Assembly (NCBI GenBank): GCA_009778475.1
Contig: WRJS01000021.1
Coordinates: 1-38,338, forward strand
Source of the DNA: Kiritimatiellota bacterium
GTDB lineage: Bacteria; Verrucomicrobiota; Kiritimatiellia; RFP12; UBA1067
Reading direction: 5' to 3'
Length of the DNA: 38,338 nucleotides
The notes under the pieces were generated by a model that worked only from the letters and a program-made list of their open reading frames with translations, had not been told where the DNA came from and made no database searches. Positions 1,654 through 30,244 of the stretch are shown here, piece by piece. The position numbers and the translations under genes are program-made. The number at the start of each line of letters is the position of its first letter. Within the stretch, counting starts at the first letter, position 1.

Positions 1654-4600
1654 ATGAAACACTTGTTTACGGTATTCGCGGCCCTCGGGTTTGGTCTTTC
1701 ATGCGCACACGCGCAAATTCCCGTCCTCACATACAACGGCGCATTCGGCGGCGACTGGTTCGCCTCGGGTGTGTGGCTGGATGAGCAGGGGCAGTCCGTG
1801 GATTGGGCGGATGGCTCGGTCGCGGTCATCACCAACACGAGCCTCAACAACGCGAACATCAACCTCTCGGCGGATGCGGTGGTGCATGGGTTTTGTGTCA
1901 CCATCAGTTACCGCACTTACATCAATGGCAACGGCAAGCTGACGCTGGGCGCGGGGGGTATCGTCGCGGACATGGGCGGTGAATTCAACATTCAGAGTGA
2001 GGGCGGCCTGCACTTGGCGGCGTCGCAGGAGTGGTTCTCTGCGACGGGCTCGATGTTCTGCCTCGACGGGCGCCGCGCCATCACGTCGGCGCCGGGCGTC
2101 GTGCTGACGGTCAACAATGGGCAGCTGCGCGCGAACGCGGGCGGCGGCCTGACGGATCAATGCACGATCATCATCGTGGGTGAGCGCGGTTCCATCTCGC
2201 CGTCGCCCTCGGGTGAGCTCGGCACGAACAAACTCATTTTCGAGGGGCCCGGCACCCGTTACAATTCCACGGGCGACAACCCCGCGTTCATCGGCGAGCC
2301 TTCGACGGGCAGTGAGTTGCTGCTGAACAACGGGGCGTCGTTCAATGTGGGCGGCACGAAGGAGTACCGCTTGCCGCTCTTGACGGTGGCGTCGCCGACG
2401 GGTACGGTCGCCTCGGCGATCACGGGCGGGGATTTGTCGCTGACCAACGCGGAGACGGTGTTGCACATCGAGGCTGACGCGGAACTCAACATCTCGGCGC
2501 GGCTCGCCGACGGCCCTGCGGGCGCGTCGGCCGTGCGCAAGACGGGCGCGGGCGCGTTGCTGTTCACGCGGGAGCAGTTGTTCAGCGGCGGGCTGGCGGT
2601 GGACACGGGGGATGTGGCGGTCTCCGTGGCGAACGGTCTCGGCGCGGGGGCGGTGACGCTCGCGAGCGGCATCGCGCTGGAACTCCTGCCGGGCGCGTCG
2701 GTCGCGAACGCCATCGGCGGCGCGGGCGCGGTGGTGAAAACGGGCGCGGGCGCGGCGACGCTCACGGGCGTGAGCACCTACACGGGCGGCACGGACATTC
2801 AGGACGGCACGGTGCGCGTCAACGCGCTGGCGGCGTTCGGCGGCGGCACGGTCGCGCTCAACGGCAACACCATCGCGTTCGTGAACAACATCACGCTCAC
2901 GGCGGCGGCGGTTTTCCCGAAGGTGCCGGGGGCGGGCGTGTTGAAGGCGGAGGCGAACACGACGCTGACGTGGGCGGATGACTACGCGGCGGCGCAGGCC
3001 TTGCGCCTGGAGGCGGACCTGCTGGGCAACGTCGTGGTCACGGGCAGCCTGACGGGCGCGGGCTTCGTCAAGACCGACCCGGGCAAACTGAGCCTCTCGG
3101 ACGTGACGGGCTACACGGGCGTCATCCGCGTGGAGAACGGCATCCTGTACATCGGCGACACCTCGGTGCTGACGGGCGACGTCACGATCGAGACGGCGGA
3201 CAGCGGCGCGGTGCAACTCGACTCCATCATGGGGCAGAACCTCGCGCTCATCACGGGGACGGCGAACATCGTCTTTGCCGACGGCGCGGCCATCACGCTC
3301 GACACGGACATGGTCGCCGCACCGTCCGTCGTGCTGAACGAGACGCTTGTCATCTCCGACCTCTCCGGCGCGGGCGACCTCGTCAAGATCGGCCCCGGCA
3401 CGATGGTCGTCACGAACGCGCCCAACTTCACGGGGCGGGTGTTCGTGCTGGACGGCACGCTCGTCGCCGAGACCCCGCTCGGCCAGCAGACCATCACCGT
3501 CTCCAACGGCACGTTCCGCGTGAACAACGCGACGCTCGCGAACAACCCCCTCGCACTGCTGGAAGCGACCGCCGTGCTGGCGGTCACCAACTCCGGCTCG
3601 CTCGGCGCGGGCGCGCTCGCGGTGAACGTCGGGCGGCTGCGCATCGAGGCGGGCGGCACCGTCGGCACACGCGCCGTCACGGTCAGCGGCACGGGACGGG
3701 TGCTGGTCGCCGACGGCGCGGGCTTCGACAACGGCCTGCTCACCATCGGCGGCGGCAGCAGCACGCTGGAGTTCATCGCGTCCACGGTGATGACCAAGGC
3801 CCCTGTCATCGCGGGCAACTGCTGGTTCTACGCGCCCCCCGGCATCGAGGCCGAAATCAACCAGCCGGTGAACACCTCCGCGAAAGCGAAACTCATCGTC
3901 AACGGCGGCGGCCGCATCACGTTCTCCGGAGGCGGCGACTTTGCCCACGCCAGCGAAATCTTCGTGCAGCAGAGCGGGACGGAGTTCGTCGTGGTCTCCA
4001 ACAAGGTCACCATCTCGTGGTACGCCGGGTTGGAGGTCGGCGGCAAACTCATCCTCGTCAAAGACGGCGGCGAGATCGAGATTACGGGCGGAAGCGCCTC
4101 CGCGGTCCATGTCGGCGCGAACCAGACCGGCACCTCCACCATCGAGGTCGGGGAGGGCGGCACGCTCAATATCCTCAACGGGACGAATTTCAGGCTCGGC
4201 TACAACGCCAACGCCATCGGCGTGCTGCGCATCAGCGGCGGCACGGCATACCTCCCCGATAACAACATTTTCGGCGTCGGCGACAATACTGGCGCCACCG
4301 GGCGCGTGGAGATCGTCAGCGGCACCCTCCACACCAGCCGACCCATCCGCCGGAACAATGACGGCAACGGGACCGTCATCTTCAGCGGCGGCACGTTGCA
4401 GTCCGACGGCGTCAACAGCCCCGACCCGTGGATCGCCGACAACATCCCCGTCATCGTCGAGGCGGGCGGCGGCACTATCGACGTGAACGGCCTGGAGATG
4501 ACCATCGGCGCCTCCGCCATCACCGGCCCCGGCACCCTCACCGTGACCGGCAACGGCATCGCGCACTTCGACCGCCCCGCACCCGACTGGACCGGCGGCG

Positions 4601-6117
4601 CCGCAATCGACAACTGCACCCTCCGCGCGAGCGCGACCAGCGCCCTCGGCACAGGCGTGGTGGACATCGGCGACGGCACGTTGGACATCACCGACGACGC
4701 GCTCCTGCCCAACGCCATCCGCGCCGACGGCGGCAACCTCCACGTCGGCGAAGGCCTCACCGCGCACACTGGCATCGCCCTCAGCGGCCGCATCACCAAG
4801 ACCGGCCCCGGCGAATGGGTCGCCGACGCGCTCTTCGACGACGCCGACCTCTCCATCGCCGACGGCCAAGTGACCGTCGCGCCCTTCGCCGAAGCCCTCG
4901 AAGGCCTCGCCGTGGCCGCGGGCGCACCCGCCGCCTTCTGGGTTGACGCGACCGTGGCCGCCTCGCTCGCCGCCAACGGGAGCGGGCAGGTCAGCAGGTG
5001 GTTCGACCGCCGCACCCCCGGCGACCTCAACGGCTTCTACGCCTCCCAGATGTACAACGCCCCCGTGCTAACCCCCGCCCAACTCAACGGCCTGCCCGTC
5101 GTGGACTTCGGCAACCTCGGCCAAGACGGCCAGGCCAACGACAACCGCCCCATGGTGTTCAAGGACTACCTCGACAACATCCGCACCGTGTTCTGGGTCA
5201 TCGGCTCGAAGAACGGCGGCGGCTTCCTGCTCGGCGACTCCAAGGAGGTCGGCGGGGCGCGGCACTTCCACCGCGCCGCCGGGTCGGGCCTCTACGGCGG
5301 CAATCCCTCCGACCCGCTGTGGCGCTGGCAAGACCCCTCGAAAAACGCCGCCCCCAACGGCGAGACATGGATCAACAAAGAACCCGTGGACGGCACAGTG
5401 ACCGGCCTCAGCGGCGACTTCGACCTCGTGGCGTGGCGCCTCTCCGAGACCGACGACACCAACGACAGCGCCGCCGGGGCAATGTGGTTCGCCGCCTGCT
5501 ACGCTCCCAACACCGGCCGGCTCAACGGCGGTCAAGACCTCGGCGAAGTCCTCATCTTCACCAACCGCCTCACCGACGCGGAACTCCGTCTCGCCGAATA
5601 CTACCTCGCCCGCAAGTGGTTCCCCCACCTCGCGCAGATGCCCGCCGCCCGCTCCGTCTCACTCGACACCGAAGGCGTCGCGTTCGTCAACGCCCACACC
5701 GACACGCTGCGCGTCAGCGAACTCATCATCAACGCCGCGAACGTCACCGTGGGCGGCCCCATCGCCGCCGCCAAACTCACCGTCACCGCCAACGGCGCAC
5801 TCCAATGCGAACGCCTCCAGACCCTCGAGACCGCCGCGCTCGAACTCGAGGACGGCGCCACCATCCTGATCGACGCAACCCTGCTCGGCGACTACCCCGC
5901 GCTCATGGTGACGGGCGACGTGACGCTCCCGCAGAACGCCGCGTTCCGCTTCATCGGCTCACCCAAGCCCCCGCCCAGCGTCCTGCTCGTCAGGGCCACC
6001 GGCACGGTCAACGGCGCGGCCCTCTGGCAAGCCCCCCCCGGCCCCTCCCGCATCGAGGTCAAGGGCGCGGACATCTGGCTCAAAACCGCGCAAGGCACAA
6101 TCATCATCCTGAAATAA
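1654..6117 (+). CDS. Large secreted autotransporter-associated beta-strand-repeat protein with LamG-like domain
   Basis: A 1487-aa protein with a clear signal peptide (MKHLFTVFAALGFGLSCAHA, cleavage after residue 20). The body is a Gly/Thr/Ala/Asn-rich beta-helix type sequence. At least five units match the autotransporter-associated beta-strand repeat (KTGxGxLxLxxxxxYTGxxxVxxGTL), starting near residues 295, 359, 471, 576 and 1046; the 359 unit (VVKTGAGAATLTGVSTYTGG) is the clearest. Residues about 1090-1325 resemble a concanavalin-like/LamG domain (AAFWVDATVAASL … GEVLIFTNRLTDAEL … YYLARKW). There is no C-terminal beta-barrel and no PEP-CTERM tail; the protein ends in GTIIILK, much like the protein at 23408-28942. 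It is likely exported and surface-exposed, perhaps an adhesin or glycan-binding fibre. The gene has its own strong promoter and ends 7 bases before an ABC ATPase gene. Confidence 0.85.
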   Translation: MKHLFTVFAALGFGLSCAHAQIPVLTYNGAFGGDWFASGVWLDEQGQSVDWADGSVAVITNTSLNNANINLSADAVVHGFCVTISYRTYINGNGKLTLGAGGIVADMGGEFNIQSEGGLHLAASQEWFSATGSMFCLDGRRAITSAPGVVLTVNNGQLRANAGGGLTDQCTIIIVGERGSISPSPSGELGTNKLIFEGPGTRYNSTGDNPAFIGEPSTGSELLLNNGASFNVGGTKEYRLPLLTVASPTGTVASAITGGDLSLTNAETVLHIEADAELNISARLADGPAGASAVRKTGAGALLFTREQLFSGGLAVDTGDVAVSVANGLGAGAVTLASGIALELLPGASVANAIGGAGAVVKTGAGAATLTGVSTYTGGTDIQDGTVRVNALAAFGGGTVALNGNTIAFVNNITLTAAAVFPKVPGAGVLKAEANTTLTWADDYAAAQALRLEADLLGNVVVTGSLTGAGFVKTDPGKLSLSDVTGYTGVIRVENGILYIGDTSVLTGDVTIETADSGAVQLDSIMGQNLALITGTANIVFADGAAITLDTDMVAAPSVVLNETLVISDLSGAGDLVKIGPGTMVVTNAPNFTGRVFVLDGTLVAETPLGQQTITVSNGTFRVNNATLANNPLALLEATAVLAVTNSGSLGAGALAVNVGRLRIEAGGTVGTRAVTVSGTGRVLVADGAGFDNGLLTIGGGSSTLEFIASTVMTKAPVIAGNCWFYAPPGIEAEINQPVNTSAKAKLIVNGGGRITFSGGGDFAHASEIFVQQSGTEFVVVSNKVTISWYAGLEVGGKLILVKDGGEIEITGGSASAVHVGANQTGTSTIEVGEGGTLNILNGTNFRLGYNANAIGVLRISGGTAYLPDNNIFGVGDNTGATGRVEIVSGTLHTSRPIRRNNDGNGTVIFSGGTLQSDGVNSPDPWIADNIPVIVEAGGGTIDVNGLEMTIGASAITGPGTLTVTGNGIAHFDRPAPDWTGGAAIDNCTLRASATSALGTGVVDIGDGTLDITDDALLPNAIRADGGNLHVGEGLTAHTGIALSGRITKTGPGEWVADALFDDADLSIADGQVTVAPFAEALEGLAVAAGAPAAFWVDATVAASLAANGSGQVSRWFDRRTPGDLNGFYASQMYNAPVLTPAQLNGLPVVDFGNLGQDGQANDNRPMVFKDYLDNIRTVFWVIGSKNGGGFLLGDSKEVGGARHFHRAAGSGLYGGNPSDPLWRWQDPSKNAAPNGETWINKEPVDGTVTGLSGDFDLVAWRLSETDDTNDSAAGAMWFAACYAPNTGRLNGGQDLGEVLIFTNRLTDAELRLAEYYLARKWFPHLAQMPAARSVSLDTEGVAFVNAHTDTLRVSELIINAANVTVGGPIAAAKLTVTANGALQCERLQTLETAALELEDGATILIDATLLGDYPALMVTGDVTLPQNAAFRFIGSPKPPPSVLLVRATGTVNGAALWQAPPGPSRIEVKGADIWLKTAQGTIIILK

Positions 6118-23187: not shown

Positions 23188-23220
23188 CGGCGGCGTCCCT
23201 GCCGCCGCAATGAGAGAACC

Positions 23221-23400
23221 ATTAACCATTATGAGAGATGAGCAGGATGAGCAGGATTGGGAAACGTTCGCGCAGAGACGCAGGGGCGCAGAGTTTTTTC
23301 GGGGGGATAGTCAAAATATCCTCCGCGCCTCTGCGTCTCTGCGCGAGAAAAAAAATAATCCTGCAAACCCTGCAAATCCTGTAACCCTGTCTAAAAAAAG
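23221..23400. repeat. Nested inverted repeats (family iii, CGCAGAG type) between genes
   Basis: Arms of 27 bases at 23267-23293 and 23321-23347, made of CGCAGAGACGCAG units, are inverted copies with a few mismatches around a 27-base loop. Outside them lie AGCAGGAT units (23231-23258) and, on the other side, ATCCTGCAAA / ATCCTGTAA units (23357-23391), again in opposite orientation. The composite hairpin fills the 220-base gap before the next start. A frame runs through it from 23210, but its composition is that of the repeat, so it is not counted as coding. Confidence 0.8.
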
Positions 23401-23407
23401 GAGAACG

Positions 23408-26400
23408 ATGATGAAAACGAGAAACGCAAACGTGTCCATGAAAGTCTGTTTGAAATATGTGTCGGGTGCCCTGCTCGCCTTCGGCGCGTTCAGCGCGTCG
23501 GGCGTGGACATCACGTGGACCGGCAACGCCGGTGACGGCGAATGGCTGACGCAAGAGAACTGGAACCCGGTGCGGGTGCCGCAGGCGGGGGACCTCGCCA
23601 TCTTCAGCGCGGCCGGCGGCGCGCTCGCCGTCAGCGACAACTGCACCATCCAGCGCGTCCGCGTCAACGGCCCTGCCGACGTGACGCTGAACATCGCCGC
23701 AGACAAGACGCTCCTCGTCTCCAACACGGGCGGCGAGGGGATGCTGGCGCTCGGCGGCAACCTCACCGTCAACGGCCCCGGCCTGCTGGGCCACACCACG
23801 GCGGGCGGGGTGAACCACCTCGACGACGGCGCGAACCCCGGCTTCACGCTCGCCATCCACGCGCAGATCGTCGCCCCCGACGGCGGCGCGGACACCGGTT
23901 TCGAGACATGGGTCGGCAACGGCGCGAAGGGCGGCACGGTCATCCTGGGCTGCGAGGCCAATGCGTTCACGCTGGGCATCGCCGCCGGGAACGGGCACAC
24001 CATCTGCGTGTCCAAACTCGCGGATCTCGGGCAGCCCTCCAGCATCGGGGCGGGCAACGCCTTCTACCCCAACAGGGGCTCCGTCCTGCGCTACACGGGC
24101 GCGGACGACAGCACGGACTGGCCCGTCCGCCTGAATGGCGGTGACGCGGTTCTCGGGTTCGGCGGCGGCATCGAACAGGACGGCACGGGCATCCTCACGT
24201 GGGCGGGCCCAATCTACAACAACAGCAACAACGCGCAGACGCTCCTGCTGGGCGGCGACTCGGCGCACGAGGGGCGCGTCACGGGCGACATCTACAACAA
24301 CGTGGGGACGCTCGCCGTCCGCAAGTACGGCAGCGGCACATGGGTGCTCGCCGGCGACAACACCTTCACGGGCAGCCTCGCCGTCGAAGGCGGGACGCTC
24401 GGCCTCGACTCCGCGAACGCGACGCGGAACGTCGCGCAGATCACGATGGCGGACGGCACGGCCCTCTCCGTCAACCCCTCCGCCACGGACGGGTTCTCCG
24501 CCGTGGTGCCGCAGGTTTTCTCGCCCGGCAGCGTCACGCTCACCGTCGCCGACGCGCCGACGGACTCCTCCGTGACGTTCAACACCCTGAGCGCCATCCG
24601 GGTCGCCGTCATCGCGCCGCAGGCCGGCACCGCCTTCAACCGCGTCTTCATCACGGGGTTCCCCGCCGGTCCCGTGGGCGCATGGCTCACGCTCAACGGC
24701 GGCGCGGCCGAGTATGACCTTACGGACGGGCTGAAACCGCTGTCCACGCCGCTCACCACGGGGCGCCTCGACACCAAGGGCAACCCCCTGCCGGACGGCG
24801 CGACGGTCCGGGCCGTCATCGACGGCATCGGCACGGGCAACGACATCTGGGCGGTCAACGACCCCACCGCACTCTACAGCCTCACGATGGACGTGGCCGG
24901 CGACGACGCGACCGTTGACCTCGGCGGCAAGCGGCTGATGCTCAACCGCGTCGCCGTCAACGCCGGGGCGGACGCGCTCACCCTCGCCAACGGCACGCTC
25001 ACCGCGCCGCTCACGCCCGCCGCGACAGGGGGCGCGCGCATCAGCGTCATCCGCACGGACGCGGCGACGGGCATCAGCCCCTCCAAAGACTACACGCACC
25101 TGCTGAGTTTCGGCAGCATTGCCGCCACCGTCAACGGTGTGACCGTCCCCGCCGCCAACGCGACCTCCGGCACGGTCACGGGAAGCGACGGGCTGGGCTA
25201 CGGCTGGCTCAACGCCCCCGGGAACGCCGCCAACCAAGGGACGCTCGCGGCCGGCACCACCGATCCCGGCAGCGGCGGCGGGCTGAACGACCTCATCTTT
25301 TCCATGCGTTACAGCGGCGGCGGCAGCCCGTCCATGGTCACGCTCACCGATTTGACCGACGGCGAGAGTTACGAGCTCACCTTCTTCACCCGCCACTGGA
25401 ACGACTTCAACTACAGCCGCCTCGCACACGTGACGTTCATCACCGACGGCAGCGGCGTGCCGAGCGCGCCCGTCGCCTTCAACACCGAATCGCCCAGCGT
25501 CACCGTCATCACTTTCCGCTACACGCTCACGGGGACGAACGCCGTGACGATGACCCTCACCAACATCGGCAGCGAGAACCGCACGCTCCACCTCTACGCG
25601 CTCACGAACGAGCGCCTGCCCGGTTCGCCCGTGCTGACGCCCGTCGCGCCGGGCGTCCTCGCGCTGGCCAGCGCGGGCGGTGCGCCGCTCACCGTCTCCG
25701 CCGCGCTCGCGGACAACGCCAACCCCGTCAACCTCGTCAAGGAAGGCGCGGGCGAGCTCCGCCTCTCGGGTCCAGTGGACACCACCGGGACCATCGCGCT
25801 CCTCGCCGACGGGCTGGTCATCGATGTCCCGTCCGGGCTGACGCGCGAGCTCGCCGCGATGCCCTACCCGCGCCTCACGGGATCCGGCGGCTTCACCAAG
25901 GCCGGCGACGGGGCGCTCACCGTTTACGGCGCGAACGACCACAGCGGCCCCACCACCGTCGCGCAAGGCACGCTCCGCATCGGCGGCGGCTCGCCCCTCG
26001 GCTCGGGCGACGTGACCGTCCTCGACGGCGCCGCGCTCGACATCGGCGGCGACGCCGGAACCCCCAACGCCACCGGCGTCAGGAAGTATATGCTCGACGG
26101 CCCGCGCACCGTCACCATCCGCGGCGCGGGCCCCGACGGCAACGGCGCTTACGTCAACAACTCCCTCTTCAACCAGCGCTATTCGACCACGGGCGTGGCG
26201 CTCAGCGGCGACGCCACGGTCGGCAGCACCGCCGTCGTCCCCGCGCTGAACGAGATGGTCGGTTCCATCAGCGTCCTCGCCCAAGGCGGCACCTTCACGC
26301 TCAACGGCCACACCCTCACCAAGAAGAGCGACAACCTCCTCAGCATGGGCAACGGCATCATCGACACCACCGGCGGCGGCACCTTCGACATCCTGCAAGG

Positions 26401-28942
26401 CACGTTCCGCCTGCACGACACGGAGAACGGGAACATCGCCTCCACCTTCCTCGGCGACGACACCACCACCGTGAACCTCGCCGGCGGCACGCGCTTCCTG
26501 CTGGACAACTTCAACCCCACCACCCCCTGCCCGTGGTCATTCAACCTCGGCAACGACGCGCGCCTCTACGCGGGCGGAAGGCCCGCCACCCTCACGGGCC
26601 CCGTGACGCTGGCGGGCAACGTCATCGTTGACGGCGCCACCGACCTCACACTATCAGGGCCGCTCTCCGGCAGCGGCAACATCCTCAAGGCGGGTAGCGG
26701 CAACCTCACCCTTTCCTTTGCGGACAACACCTATCAGGGCGACACCACCATCAGTGCGGCTGCCGTCCGCGTCGGCGCCACCAACGCGCTCTCATCCACT
26801 GGCACCGTCACCGCCAACATGGCTAAACTAGAGGTGATCTACGGCGGACGGCAGGAGCTCCCAAGCCTCCTGCTCTTCGGCAGCGGCCTCACGGGCTGGG
26901 GCAACTGGGGCAAGAGCGGCGATGTCGCCGTCAACGGCACCACCACCGTCGAGAGCATGGAATTCATGCCCTTCGCGGGTGTCAACGCCCGCCACTTCGA
27001 GACGGGCGCCCTCGTGCTAAACGGCGGCTTCATCGCCAGCGACACCCTCGCCTTCGGGACGCTTGAAAAGACGACGGCCGCCGCCACCCTCGCCGCCAGC
27101 AACATCAACGTCGAGACGCTCACCGTCACGGGCGGCAGGCTGACGCTGGACGAACTCTCGATTGAGGACGTCTTCCGCATCGGCCGCCCGCTCGTCTGGT
27201 ACGACGCATCCGACGCGGCATCCATCGTGACCAACGCCGAGGGCTTCGTCACCCTGTTCCGCAACAAGGGCATCAGCGCGAACGCGGATGCCGTCCCCGA
27301 CCCGGCGACAACGGCCGCGTCCAACACCTTCTCCGTCGCCACCGCCCCCGACGGGCTGACCTTCATCCGCAAGGACACCGACCCCTACGCCGCGCTGATG
27401 AGCAACGCCGACATCGGCATCACGGGCACCGCGCCGCGCACCCTCTTCGCCGCCGCGCGGCGCATCCTGCCGGACAAGGGCCTCCAGATTCATTACGGCC
27501 CGAACGCGAACGGGCAGGCCTTCGCGTTTGACATCGGCACCGCGAACATCTACTACTACCTTTACAGCAACGACATCCAAGTGGGCAACAGCGTTGCAGC
27601 GGGGGAGCCCCTTGTGCTGACCCACATGTCTGGCGGGGAGGGCAACGCCATGCTGCGGCAGGCTTGGCTGAACGGCGTGTACATGGGGGAGAAAAGCGAC
27701 GGCACGTTCAACACCGTCAACAACCGCTTCCGGCTCTTCGCGCGGGCCGGGCAGAATGCGTTGCAGGGCGACATCGGCGAGGTCCTCTTCTTCAACCGCA
27801 CGCTCTCCGACGCCGAGCGCCGCGCCGTCGAGCGCTACCTCTCGCGCAAGTGGCATTCCGCCGACACGCCCGCCCTGCCCCCCGCGCTCGCGCCGGGCAC
27901 GGACGTGGCGCTCGTGCCCACGCCCCAGCAGGACGCCGCCGCGTCAATCGCGTTCCCCTTCGACGACACGACCTGCGGCATCTCCACCAACAAGCGCTAC
28001 ACCCATGCGCTCGACTTCGGCAACAACACGGCGGCGGCCAACGTCGTCAACGGCGTCCCCTTCACCCCCATCGCGGGGAACGACGCCCAGGCGGGGGTCT
28101 CGCTCGTGTACAACAACCGCGCGAACAACAACACCATCAACACGCAGATCCTGCCGTGGTGCGTGTTCCGCACGCTCCTCCCGAACATGATGTATTCGAA
28201 CAGCGGCAACCCGACGGCGGTGACGCTCAGCGGCCTGACGCCGGGCAAGGCGTACGAGATCGCGCTCATCAACCGCCCGTGGAGCAGCGACGGCAATTTC
28301 ACCAACCGCCGGATGACCGTCAACTTCATCAACGGCACGGCGCGCGACCTGCTGACGTTCAACAACGAATGCTCGCTGGTGCAAATCCTCAATTGGCGAT
28401 ACGTCGCGCAGGGCGAGTCCGTGACCGTCACGCTGATCAACACCACGACCTCCCTCACGCTCCACCTCTACGCGCTGACCAACGAGGAGCTCCCCCCCAC
28501 CGCCGCCGACGGCAACGACCTCTTGCCGCTCCTCGACCTCGGCAGCCGCCCCGAGACCATCCGTAACCTCACCGGCTCCGGCACGGTCACGGGCGACGGC
28601 GCCGTGGCGCTCACCGTCACGGGCGAGATCACCACCCCCTCCGTCATCAACTTCGACGGCGCGAAACCCGTGTTCGACGGCGCGGTGTTCCGCGCCGCTC
28701 CCGATTGCGGGCGCGTCCATGTCGTCGGCGAGGCAGACTTCTCCGCGCTCACCGTCGCCGCCGTCCCTGGCATCGTCAACCCGCGCAGTATGCGCCGCAT
28801 GATACTTTCCGCGACAGGCGGCGTCACCGCCCTGCCCGCGCTGCACCCCGAGCTCCGCGCCACGAACCGCCTCGAGCTCTCCGGCGACGGCAACAGCGTC
28901 TGGATCGCCCCCGTCATCGGCACCGCCATCATCCTGAAATAA
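23408..28942 (+). CDS. Giant beta-strand-repeat surface protein with a duplicated domain and LamG-like domain
   Basis: About 1844 aa from ATG 23408, chosen because AAGGAG lies at 23397-23402 and a signal peptide follows (MKVCLKYVSGALLAFGAFSASG). The mature start (ITWTGNAGDGEWLTQENWNP) is typical of beta-strand-repeat proteins. Clear repeat units start near residues 303, 829 and 1094 (for example KAGDGALTVYGANDHSG). A module of about 180 residues occurs twice, at about 554-737 and 1521-1696: each opens GIS.(S/N)K.YTH.L.FG and closes LHLYALTNE.LP. Between them, about 1261-1485, lies a LamG-like domain (PLVWYDASDAASI … GEVLFFNRTLSDAE … YLSRKWHS). The C-terminus is GTAIILK, as in the protein at 1654-6117. 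No barrel or PEP-CTERM is present. Probably a surface or secreted glycan-associated fibre, co-transcribed with the GH10 gene 3 bases downstream. Confidence 0.83.
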   Translation: MMKTRNANVSMKVCLKYVSGALLAFGAFSASGVDITWTGNAGDGEWLTQENWNPVRVPQAGDLAIFSAAGGALAVSDNCTIQRVRVNGPADVTLNIAADKTLLVSNTGGEGMLALGGNLTVNGPGLLGHTTAGGVNHLDDGANPGFTLAIHAQIVAPDGGADTGFETWVGNGAKGGTVILGCEANAFTLGIAAGNGHTICVSKLADLGQPSSIGAGNAFYPNRGSVLRYTGADDSTDWPVRLNGGDAVLGFGGGIEQDGTGILTWAGPIYNNSNNAQTLLLGGDSAHEGRVTGDIYNNVGTLAVRKYGSGTWVLAGDNTFTGSLAVEGGTLGLDSANATRNVAQITMADGTALSVNPSATDGFSAVVPQVFSPGSVTLTVADAPTDSSVTFNTLSAIRVAVIAPQAGTAFNRVFITGFPAGPVGAWLTLNGGAAEYDLTDGLKPLSTPLTTGRLDTKGNPLPDGATVRAVIDGIGTGNDIWAVNDPTALYSLTMDVAGDDATVDLGGKRLMLNRVAVNAGADALTLANGTLTAPLTPAATGGARISVIRTDAATGISPSKDYTHLLSFGSIAATVNGVTVPAANATSGTVTGSDGLGYGWLNAPGNAANQGTLAAGTTDPGSGGGLNDLIFSMRYSGGGSPSMVTLTDLTDGESYELTFFTRHWNDFNYSRLAHVTFITDGSGVPSAPVAFNTESPSVTVITFRYTLTGTNAVTMTLTNIGSENRTLHLYALTNERLPGSPVLTPVAPGVLALASAGGAPLTVSAALADNANPVNLVKEGAGELRLSGPVDTTGTIALLADGLVIDVPSGLTRELAAMPYPRLTGSGGFTKAGDGALTVYGANDHSGPTTVAQGTLRIGGGSPLGSGDVTVLDGAALDIGGDAGTPNATGVRKYMLDGPRTVTIRGAGPDGNGAYVNNSLFNQRYSTTGVALSGDATVGSTAVVPALNEMVGSISVLAQGGTFTLNGHTLTKKSDNLLSMGNGIIDTTGGGTFDILQGTFRLHDTENGNIASTFLGDDTTTVNLAGGTRFLLDNFNPTTPCPWSFNLGNDARLYAGGRPATLTGPVTLAGNVIVDGATDLTLSGPLSGSGNILKAGSGNLTLSFADNTYQGDTTISAAAVRVGATNALSSTGTVTANMAKLEVIYGGRQELPSLLLFGSGLTGWGNWGKSGDVAVNGTTTVESMEFMPFAGVNARHFETGALVLNGGFIASDTLAFGTLEKTTAAATLAASNINVETLTVTGGRLTLDELSIEDVFRIGRPLVWYDASDAASIVTNAEGFVTLFRNKGISANADAVPDPATTAASNTFSVATAPDGLTFIRKDTDPYAALMSNADIGITGTAPRTLFAAARRILPDKGLQIHYGPNANGQAFAFDIGTANIYYYLYSNDIQVGNSVAAGEPLVLTHMSGGEGNAMLRQAWLNGVYMGEKSDGTFNTVNNRFRLFARAGQNALQGDIGEVLFFNRTLSDAERRAVERYLSRKWHSADTPALPPALAPGTDVALVPTPQQDAAASIAFPFDDTTCGISTNKRYTHALDFGNNTAAANVVNGVPFTPIAGNDAQAGVSLVYNNRANNNTINTQILPWCVFRTLLPNMMYSNSGNPTAVTLSGLTPGKAYEIALINRPWSSDGNFTNRRMTVNFINGTARDLLTFNNECSLVQILNWRYVAQGESVTVTLINTTTSLTLHLYALTNEELPPTAADGNDLLPLLDLGSRPETIRNLTGSGTVTGDGAVALTVTGEITTPSVINFDGAKPVFDGAVFRAAPDCGRVHVVGEADFSALTVAAVPGIVNPRSMRRMILSATGGVTALPALHPELRATNRLELSGDGNSVWIAPVIGTAIILK

Positions 28943-28945
28943 GCC

Positions 28946-30244
28946 ATGGATACGCACATGAAACGGATCGCCATTCTGACACTGCTGGGGTTTTCTGCGA
29001 TGGCGCAGGAGGGCTGGCTTGAACAAGCAAACGCCCGCATCGAAGAGCACCGCAAAGCGCCCTGCCGCATCCGTGTGACGAAAGGCGGCGAGCCTGTCGC
29101 CAACGCCTCCGTCCGCATGGACATGACGCGCAACGAGTTCCTCTTCGGCAGCAACATCTTCAAACTCGATGAGAACAAAACGCCGCAGGACAATCAGGCG
29201 TATGCCGAGCGTTTCGCCGGCCTGTTCAACTTCGCCACGCTCGGCTTCTACTGGTCGAGCTACGAGTGGAAACGGGGAAGCCCAGGCTACGCCAAATCCG
29301 AGAAGGTCGCGGCGTGGTGCAAAGAGCACGGCATCACGGCCAAAGGGCACCCCCTCGTCTGGAACACCGGCGACCCCGGCTGGATCAAGCCCCTGTCCGT
29401 GGACGAGGTGTACGGTGCGCAGCTCGGCAGGGCCGCCGCTTGCGCCGAACGTTTCCGCGACAAGATCGACGTGTGGGACGTGATCAACGAGGTCACCGAA
29501 TGGCAGCGTGACGAGATGTGGAAGAAATCCCCCAAGCTCACCGAGCTCGGCAAAAAATTCGGCGACCCCGAGCTGGTGAAGGCGAGCTTCGCCGCCACCC
29601 GCGCAGGCAACCCCAACGCCATCCTCCTCATCAACGACTACATCCTCGACGCCCCTTACGCCGCCCTGCTCGACAAGCTCAACGCGCCCGACGGCAAGCC
29701 CGTGTTCGACGCCATCGGGCTACAGACGCACACGCACATCAAAGGCATCGAGCATTACGGCAACGAGGCCCTCTGGGCGATTTGCGAACGCTTCGCGCGC
29801 TTCGGCGTGCCGCTCCATTTCACGGAGATGACCATCGTCTCGACGCTCCAGCGCAACATGGTGTGGAAAGACACCGCAACGAGCCCCGAGGGCGAGGCTT
29901 GGCAGCGCGACGAGGTGCTGCGGATCTACACCCTCCTCTTCTCCCACCCCTCCGTGGCGGCGATCACTTGGTGGGACTTCAGCGACCAAGGCGCGTGGAT
30001 GGGCGCCCCCGCCGGGCTCCTCCGCGCCGACATGACCCCCAAGCCGGCCTACGACGCGCTCCGCGAGCGCATCCACACCGACTGGTCCACGCACGCGGAC
30101 CTGAAAACCGGCGCCGACGGCACCGCCACCCTCCGCGCCTTCCGTGGCGAATACCGCGTGACCGCCATCCTCCCCGACGGCGCCCGCAAAGAAGCCACCG
30201 CCACCGTCCGCCCCGGCGACAACCCCATCGACGTGGCGTTTTGA
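28946..30244 (+). CDS. GH10 endo-1,4-beta-xylanase-like glycoside hydrolase
   Basis: A 432-aa exported enzyme. Start ATG 28946 or, equally possible, ATG 28958 (MKRIAILTLLGFSAMAQ, the signal peptide proper). Residues about 35-75 form a small beta domain (CRIRVTKGGEPVANASVRM … NEFLFGSNIF) common in PVC GH10 proteins. The catalytic (beta/alpha)8 barrel shows KGHPLVWN, the acid/base Glu 182 in WDVINEVTEW, the nucleophile Glu 294 in LHFTEMTIVS, and ITWWDFSDQGAWMG. A C-terminal extension of about 55 residues (DLKTGADGTATLRAFRGEYRV…) looks like a second beta-sandwich. It should cleave beta-1,4-xylan or related polymers outside the cell. It begins 3 bases after the giant repeat protein, so the two are probably one transcript. 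Confidence 0.92.
   Translation: MDTHMKRIAILTLLGFSAMAQEGWLEQANARIEEHRKAPCRIRVTKGGEPVANASVRMDMTRNEFLFGSNIFKLDENKTPQDNQAYAERFAGLFNFATLGFYWSSYEWKRGSPGYAKSEKVAAWCKEHGITAKGHPLVWNTGDPGWIKPLSVDEVYGAQLGRAAACAERFRDKIDVWDVINEVTEWQRDEMWKKSPKLTELGKKFGDPELVKASFAATRAGNPNAILLINDYILDAPYAALLDKLNAPDGKPVFDAIGLQTHTHIKGIEHYGNEALWAICERFARFGVPLHFTEMTIVSTLQRNMVWKDTATSPEGEAWQRDEVLRIYTLLFSHPSVAAITWWDFSDQGAWMGAPAGLLRADMTPKPAYDALRERIHTDWSTHADLKTGADGTATLRAFRGEYRVTAILPDGARKEATATVRPGDNPIDVAF

Follow-up and report, generated by a model that had tools for sequence, protein, structure and literature searches.

The giant beta-repeat proteins of Kiritimatiellia, together with a varied set of other PVC proteins, contain a recurring stretch that we interpret, with moderate confidence, as a divergent malectin-like beta-sandwich module that is most likely a carbohydrate-binding (adhesion) unit. 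This reading would provide a fold and a testable function for a stretch that recurs in giant unannotated PVC proteins, and would connect these proteins with a fold whose sugar site is known. The module occurs twice in one protein, P0001, encoded on a contig of 38,338 nucleotides (WRJS01000021.1; hereafter the window, meaning the whole stretch of DNA analysed) from a Kiritimatiellota bacterium (assembly GCA_009778475.1). The features of P0001 and of the gene that follows it are listed below.

23408 to 28942, forward strand: gene of the giant protein P0001; likely start ATGATG at 23408/23411, longest open reading frame from 23210.
23408 to 23503, forward strand: signal-peptide-like N-terminus of P0001 (MMKTRNANVSMKVCLKYVSGALLAFGAFSASG), sequence read directly.
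24320 to 24406, forward strand: PATR / autotransporter-type beta-strand repeat, one of several; best stretch of TIGR02601, residues 371-399.
25046 to 25621, forward strand: malectin-like module, copy A; model m9ba7863b0008, pLDDT 92.1, pTM 0.90.
25892 to 25981, forward strand: PATR repeat between the two modules; best stretch of PF12951, residues 895-924.
27485 to 27817, forward strand: weak LamG-like (ConA-like) stretch; PF13385 (Laminin_G_3), residues 1426-1536, 14.9 bits, below the cut-off of 27.6.
27953 to 28495, forward strand: malectin-like module, copy B; model m030be075edaf, pLDDT 90.2, pTM 0.88.
28919 to 28939, forward strand: tail GTAIILK of P0001 (GT, four apolar residues, K, stop), sequence read directly.
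28946 to 30244, forward strand: GH10 (xylanase family) gene; PF00331, E 4.8e-35, with a second in-frame ATG at 28958.

The frame that holds the giant gene is open from 23210 to 28942 on the forward strand (1910 amino acids), but translation probably starts at 23408 or 23411, because an AGGAG, read directly, lies just before both ATGs (4 bases 5' of the first and 7 bases 5' of the second). An earlier, sequence-only reading of the window counted its residues from MKTRN at 23411, which is 67 residues past the first in-frame ATG (23210). With its signal-peptide-like start, P0001 is probably exported. Only PATR repeats exceed the Pfam cut-off in P0001 (the NCBIfam model TIGR02601 also matches), and Pfam found no catalytic domain in the chain. 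The first ATG of the GH10 gene lies 3 bases past the stop of the giant gene, a spacing that suggests coupling of the two. Just upstream of the giant gene lies P0003 (21679-23187), a protein that looks secreted, has at most 502 residues and gives no Pfam match at E <= 1e-3. The window also encodes P0002 (18428-21832), in which LamG and a PD40 repeat occur together with a domain that takes its name from the hydrazine synthase alpha subunit and, by direct reading, two CxxCH haem-type motifs.

A module present in two copies between 25069 and 28495 had been proposed by the sequence-only reading, and the repeat is real. Copies A and B are each about 185 residues long and are identical in 67 of 191 aligned columns (35%; BLASTP 76.6 bits, E 1e-22), and their local alignment score of 230 is far above the scores obtained with 500 shuffles of copy B (mean 35.7, SD 5.8, maximum 58). 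The coordinates proposed were right, with GISPSKDYTH read from 25070 and the second TLHLYALTNEELP ending at 28495. The shared patterns given for the opening and the closing are exact in both copies and that for the middle is exact in copy B, but the middle of copy A ends in W-x6-R and not in W-x8-R. The two copies had also been said to bracket a LamG-like domain; such a stretch does sit between them, but it stays below the Pfam cut-off. A recent internal duplication is not supported, as A and B lie apart in a tree of 131 module rows in which neither is well placed: copy A stands beside modules of the type found on contig C60 (support 92/87) and the placement of copy B is weak (81/43).

Ten matches were found when the genome of origin was searched with copy A, and a profile of eleven copies found 12, of which 11 are full length and one, on contig C149, is a weak partial match. 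The full-length modules are distributed over five giant open reading frames on contigs C21, C30, C49, C60 and C153; measured from stop to stop, these frames have 1960 to 2633 residues. Matches at E <= 1e-3 were present in 12 of 41 genomes, this one included, and at E <= 1e-5 in 38 of 387 genomes sampled across the phylum, where at most eight candidates were scored per genome so that the counts are lower bounds. Among named genome contigs 104 stretches matched, 64 of which encode relatives in 63 distinct loci; most of these loci carry the title Kiritimatiellae, Verrucomicrobiota or Planctomycetota, a few belong to MAGs under other titles, and two come from the isolate Roseibacillus persicicus KCTC 12988. 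Searched as a profile in PVC relatives, a check that the sequence-only reading had put forward, the module is found across Kiritimatiellia, other Verrucomicrobiota and Planctomycetota. From 131 distinct full-length modules (the first eight loci omitted as duplicates, and a few being one place with different ends) we kept 55, each less than 50% identical to the others kept, as alignment A2, which opens with D-A-D-x-G-I-S-x-x-K-T-Y-T-H and closes with H-L-Y-G-L-T-N-E.

The module is found in varied company. In 15 module proteins of relatives, the domains over the Pfam cut-off beside the module included PATR, LamG, F5/8 C, DUF642, lamin-tail, CotH, PKD, Calx-beta, dockerin and TSP3, and PA14 is found in two further giant open reading frames of the genome of origin. 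In locus L072 a match to the C-terminal domain of GH36 falls below the cut-off. Three large planctomycete or verrucomicrobial proteins (L066:9240-15935, L077:7137-14426 and L100:7164-14051) join the module to lamin-tail and CotH domains, one of them with a dockerin.

The sequence-only reading had called the domain undescribed and, as a sequence family, it is: no Pfam, NCBIfam or PDB sequence covers the module, and its profile did not turn out to match only an already defined Pfam or CBM family. Malectin did not appear at E <= 1 for the 55 members of A2 (25 of 26 Pfam families being listed) or at E <= 10 for P0001. The same Pfam search gave weak matches, most often to fibronectin type III (fn3), in 20 of the 55 members (best E 1.9e-4), and to the N-terminal domain of purple acid phosphatase, in 17, with CBM4_9 matching 3 (best E 8.1e-5), and NCBIfam gave scattered weak matches, none common to two members. 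The PDB sequences that the A2 profile matched were for the most part fibronectin and monobodies, as a rule over some 30 positions; malectin was not among the 60 listed of the 119 sequences matched. In the portions consulted of the open-licence PMC literature, PMC7356697, PMC10880615 and PMC12057145 included, we found no description of the module or of the GT tail discussed below.

The module could on these grounds be taken for an ordinary fibronectin type III domain, single or paired, since fn3 is the commonest weak Pfam match, the A2 profile matches fibronectin 1fnf (E 8.9e-8), and whole-protein fn3 sums pass the 25-bit cut-off in L133 (28.7) and in the giant open reading frame on contig C30 of the genome of origin (29.7). 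In neither of these two proteins, however, does any single stretch pass, and the best stretches cover only about 20-70 of 182 positions, many near 30, centred on the strand pair L-x-G-L-x-P-G-x-x-Y. The match is to a short strand motif and not to the length of a domain of about 90 residues (PF00041), whereas the module forms a single unit, about 190 residues long, whose model aligns with malectin nearly end to end. On this basis we reject fibronectin type III identity and give it next to no weight.

A beta-sandwich had been anticipated from the sequence, and AlphaFold predicts one with high confidence for both copies, the two models being built from one shared alignment and hence not fully independent. 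Comparison of these predicted structures with known folds placed both in a malectin-like tier. Foldseek against the PDB returned plant ANXUR ectodomains first for copy A, and with VIA-align 2 malectin-like domains came first for both copies among the matches listed, with Z of 12.4-16.2 against 9-13 in the next rows. Copy A aligned with the C-terminal domain of 6d8g with Z 14.6 (rmsd 2.6, 145 aligned), with ANXUR2 5y92 with Z 13.5 (rmsd 2.6, 148 aligned) and with human malectin 9ikp with Z 13.4 (2.8, 151), and below this tier, among the matches listed, stood 2o14 at 11.3 and others at 10.0 or less. For copy B the corresponding values were 16.2 for 6d8g (rmsd 2.5, 146), 14.9 for 9ikp (2.6, 152) and 14.8 for 5y92 (2.9, 149), followed among the matches listed by 2o14 at 12.8 and others at 10.9 or less.

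Profile-profile comparison pointed in the same direction. Malectin sequences were collected as Pfam-model matches from the relatives (23 of 59 genomes have one) and control families were gathered likewise, the loci used, chosen mainly for long matches, numbering 22 of 30 for malectin, 20 of 30 for F5/8, 21 of 30 for CBM4_9 and 16 of 19 for CBM6. By hhalign, A2 matched malectin with a probability of 92.4% over 136 columns (E 5e-7), against 23.4% for CBM4_9, 1.0% for CBM6, 0.4% for F5/8, 0.1% for column-reversed malectin and at most 1.1% for 25 column shuffles; pairwise E-values of this kind are rough, and we place weight on the contrast with the controls. Against a smaller set of eight malectin sequences the probability was 86.4% (E 4.7e-6, 86 columns) and, for scale, CBM6 against malectin gave 10.8%.

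The same data bear on whether the module belongs to another defined jelly-roll CBM family (CBM4/9, CBM22, CBM35 or CBM6) that is too diverged for Pfam to recognise. Chains of CBM22, CBM35, CBM61 and CBM16 do appear in the fold lists and CBM4_9 has its few Pfam matches and its 23% in hhalign, yet such chains fall under the malectin tier for both models among the matches listed, and malectin is the only one of the four families compared by hhalign to exceed 24%. We regard this possibility as very unlikely. By profile CBM4_9, CBM6 and F5/8 are weaker matches than malectin, and in the fold lists CBM22 and CBM35 stand under the malectin tier among the matches listed. A new kind of domain is not supported either, as both models and the controlled profile comparison place the module in the malectin superfamily. 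By these predictions, which settle the fold as far as predictions can, the module is a widespread, unnamed branch of that superfamily.

The relationship to known systems is one of partial likeness. With malectin (PF11721; CBM57) the module shares the predicted fold, profile similarity over about 136 columns and two sugar-stacking aromatic positions, but it is missed by the Pfam model, has opening and closing motifs of its own, lacks the acidic sugar contacts in both copies, and is found in giant repeat proteins whereas malectin is an ER lectin. Both copies have the C-terminal domains of Bacteroides/Tannerella beta-glucuronidases (6d8g, 6d50, 5uj6, 6ed1 and 8dhl) among their best structural matches; because the malectin profile matches the C-terminal region of 6ed1, 5uj6, 6d50 and 6d8g, that is, of all but 8dhl, we take these domains to be of a malectin-like kind, but they end a GH2 enzyme, and in the P0001 chain no catalytic domain was found. 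The plant CrRLK1L malectin-like ectodomains (ANXUR, FERONIA) have the same fold and can carry more than one module per chain, but theirs are adjacent and form a cleft, according to the part of PMC6038381 consulted, whereas in P0001, a repeat protein of a bacterium, a long distance separates the copies. Profile kinship also links the module to stand-alone Verrucomicrobiota PEP-CTERM proteins (L122, L123 and L129-L131): a comparison set of 16 stretches, drawn from these and from other distant proteins, matches A2 at 99.0% (hhalign, E 5e-18), yet this set matches malectin at 20.4%, hardly over the 18.0% for CBM4_9. The stand-alone proteins differ from the module-bearing giants in being short (frames of 249-356 residues), with PEP-CTERM ends and without the YTH opening and the LTNE closing.

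Residues of the module were mapped onto malectin by profile alignments, not by superposed coordinates. In Xenopus malectin the sugar contacts reported in the part of PMC13335976 consulted, which also gives those of human malectin, are Tyr67, Glu87, Tyr89, Tyr116, Phe117 and Asp186. Xenopus Tyr89 aligns with Tyr89 of the copy A module, a position that is aromatic in 49 of 55 A2 members, and Tyr116 aligns with Trp118, aromatic in 54 of 55. The Glu87 position is Met or Phe in 50 of the 55 members. At the Asp186 position 13 members have Asp and 4 have Glu, but copy A has Arg and copy B has Leu; the alignment of the Tyr67 loop with the module is not confident. As judged from these alignments, the module retains the putative stacking platform but little of the hydrogen-bonding set. 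Glycan binding by the module is plausible, because the two sugar-stacking positions are kept and a GH10 gene adjoins.

The conserved aromatics may nevertheless be structural, and the malectin fold could serve here without sugar binding, as a unit that binds protein or has a structural part to play, spacing or capping the beta-repeat stalk, in the manner of plant CrRLK1L domains without a sugar site. We rate this as a substantial possibility, with roughly one chance in three in its favour in our estimation. The canonical sugar surface is unconserved in the plant domains and no binding was detected, ANX1, of the same fold, having bound no sugar tested, as described in the part of PMC6038381 available to us; the absence of malectin's acidic contacts from copies A and B points the same way. 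Much of the conservation in A2 lies near the module ends (D5, Y16, T17 and H18; H182, Y184, N188 and E189), which fits a structural or interface role, and no glycoside hydrolase domain exceeded the Pfam cut-off in any of the 15 module proteins of relatives. On the other hand, few columns are as aromatic as the two that align with sugar-stacking residues, and many of the companion domains belong to types that bind sugars (LamG, F5/8 C, PA14, DUF642). Glycan binding appears the likelier of the two.

The protein is probably exported, as its signal-peptide-like start suggests, and probably displayed on the cell surface, as the repeat architecture and the common C-terminal tail suggest. If the module does bind glycans, a sugar would stack on Tyr89 and Trp118 (copy A module numbering), the residues aligned with Tyr89 and Tyr116 of Xenopus malectin. 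Its ligand would be other than diglucose, because malectin's acidic contacts are absent from both copies, and a plant polysaccharide such as xylan is one candidate, because the GH10 gene adjoins. More tentatively, and at somewhat less than even odds in our view, the modules may be the sugar-reading heads of an undescribed Kiritimatiellia surface-display system, in which dozens of giant exported proteins per genome, many of them made of beta-repeats, end alike only in a C-terminal tail of GT, four hydrophobic residues and R or K that some machine would read for export or anchoring; the heads would have a remodelled site for a glycan that is new for malectin.

The tail is not limited to module proteins. 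G-T, four apolar residues and a final R or K close all five module-bearing giant open reading frames of the genome, and also a further giant protein of the window.

1654 to 6117, forward strand: second giant PATR protein of the window (P0006), without the module; tail GTIIILK at 6094-6117.

The tail was counted in DNA with the pattern G-T-(NTN codon)x4-(K/N/R/S/H/Q)-(stop or Trp). GTAIILK of P0001 is a near match that falls outside these strict counts owing to its Ala. The genome of origin has 35 matches, against one for the reversed pattern and one with Gly and Thr swapped, and 59 relatives summed have 821 against 31 and 15, respectively. Inspected by eye, all 35 matches have K or R followed by a true stop, despite the looser pattern. 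In the 30 of these 35 loci examined in sequence the frame is open across the whole 1.5 kb upstream; among another 30 loci from the pattern search several are short and probably chance frames. The 19 forward-strand matches include three that run off the contig end and 16 complete proteins of 1161 to 2456 residues. A signal-peptide-like start was found in all 16 complete proteins with a lenient rule that tries any Met in the first 220 residues, and the same rule fires on 13 of 34 background frames, a mixture of real genes and spurious frames.

In 240 genomes across the phylum, high tail counts occurred only in the class of the window (for example 30 in G142 and 24 in G220), with 0 to 5 matches per genome outside it, mostly like the controls; family f3 belongs to the same order, yet none of its nine genomes has the tail, and genera g6 and g12 almost lack it. 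Within the phylum the tail hardly occurs outside this class. We consider the GT tail a candidate sorting tag. PEP-CTERM sorting signals consist of a PEP motif, a transmembrane helix and a basic cluster; the GT tail is not one of them, as it has no PEP and its GT, four apolar residues and single K or R are too short for a membrane span. Exosortase may have a role but was set aside as the reader of the tail: PF09721 is present in 58 of 59 relatives whatever their tail count, including genomes without a tail match, and its distribution fails to explain that of the tail. Phylogenetic profiling, in the part of PMC1569441 consulted, tied PEP-CTERM to EpsH/exosortase. The GT tail is perhaps more novel than the module and merits separate study and, if it is a sorting signal, would be a brief and precise motif by which to look for the machinery that exports or anchors proteins in these bacteria.

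Other tails are seen in the homologues. Outside Kiritimatiellia, several module proteins (L065, L066, L069, L078, L080, L092, L101, L104 and L105) have, by eye, a PEP-CTERM at the tail position, confirmed by Pfam in L078 and L104, and it sometimes directly follows the module, as if both tails were interchangeable. A third group of module proteins (L062, L063, L068-L071, L073, L084 and L098) ends in F-Y/F-R-I-E or close variants.
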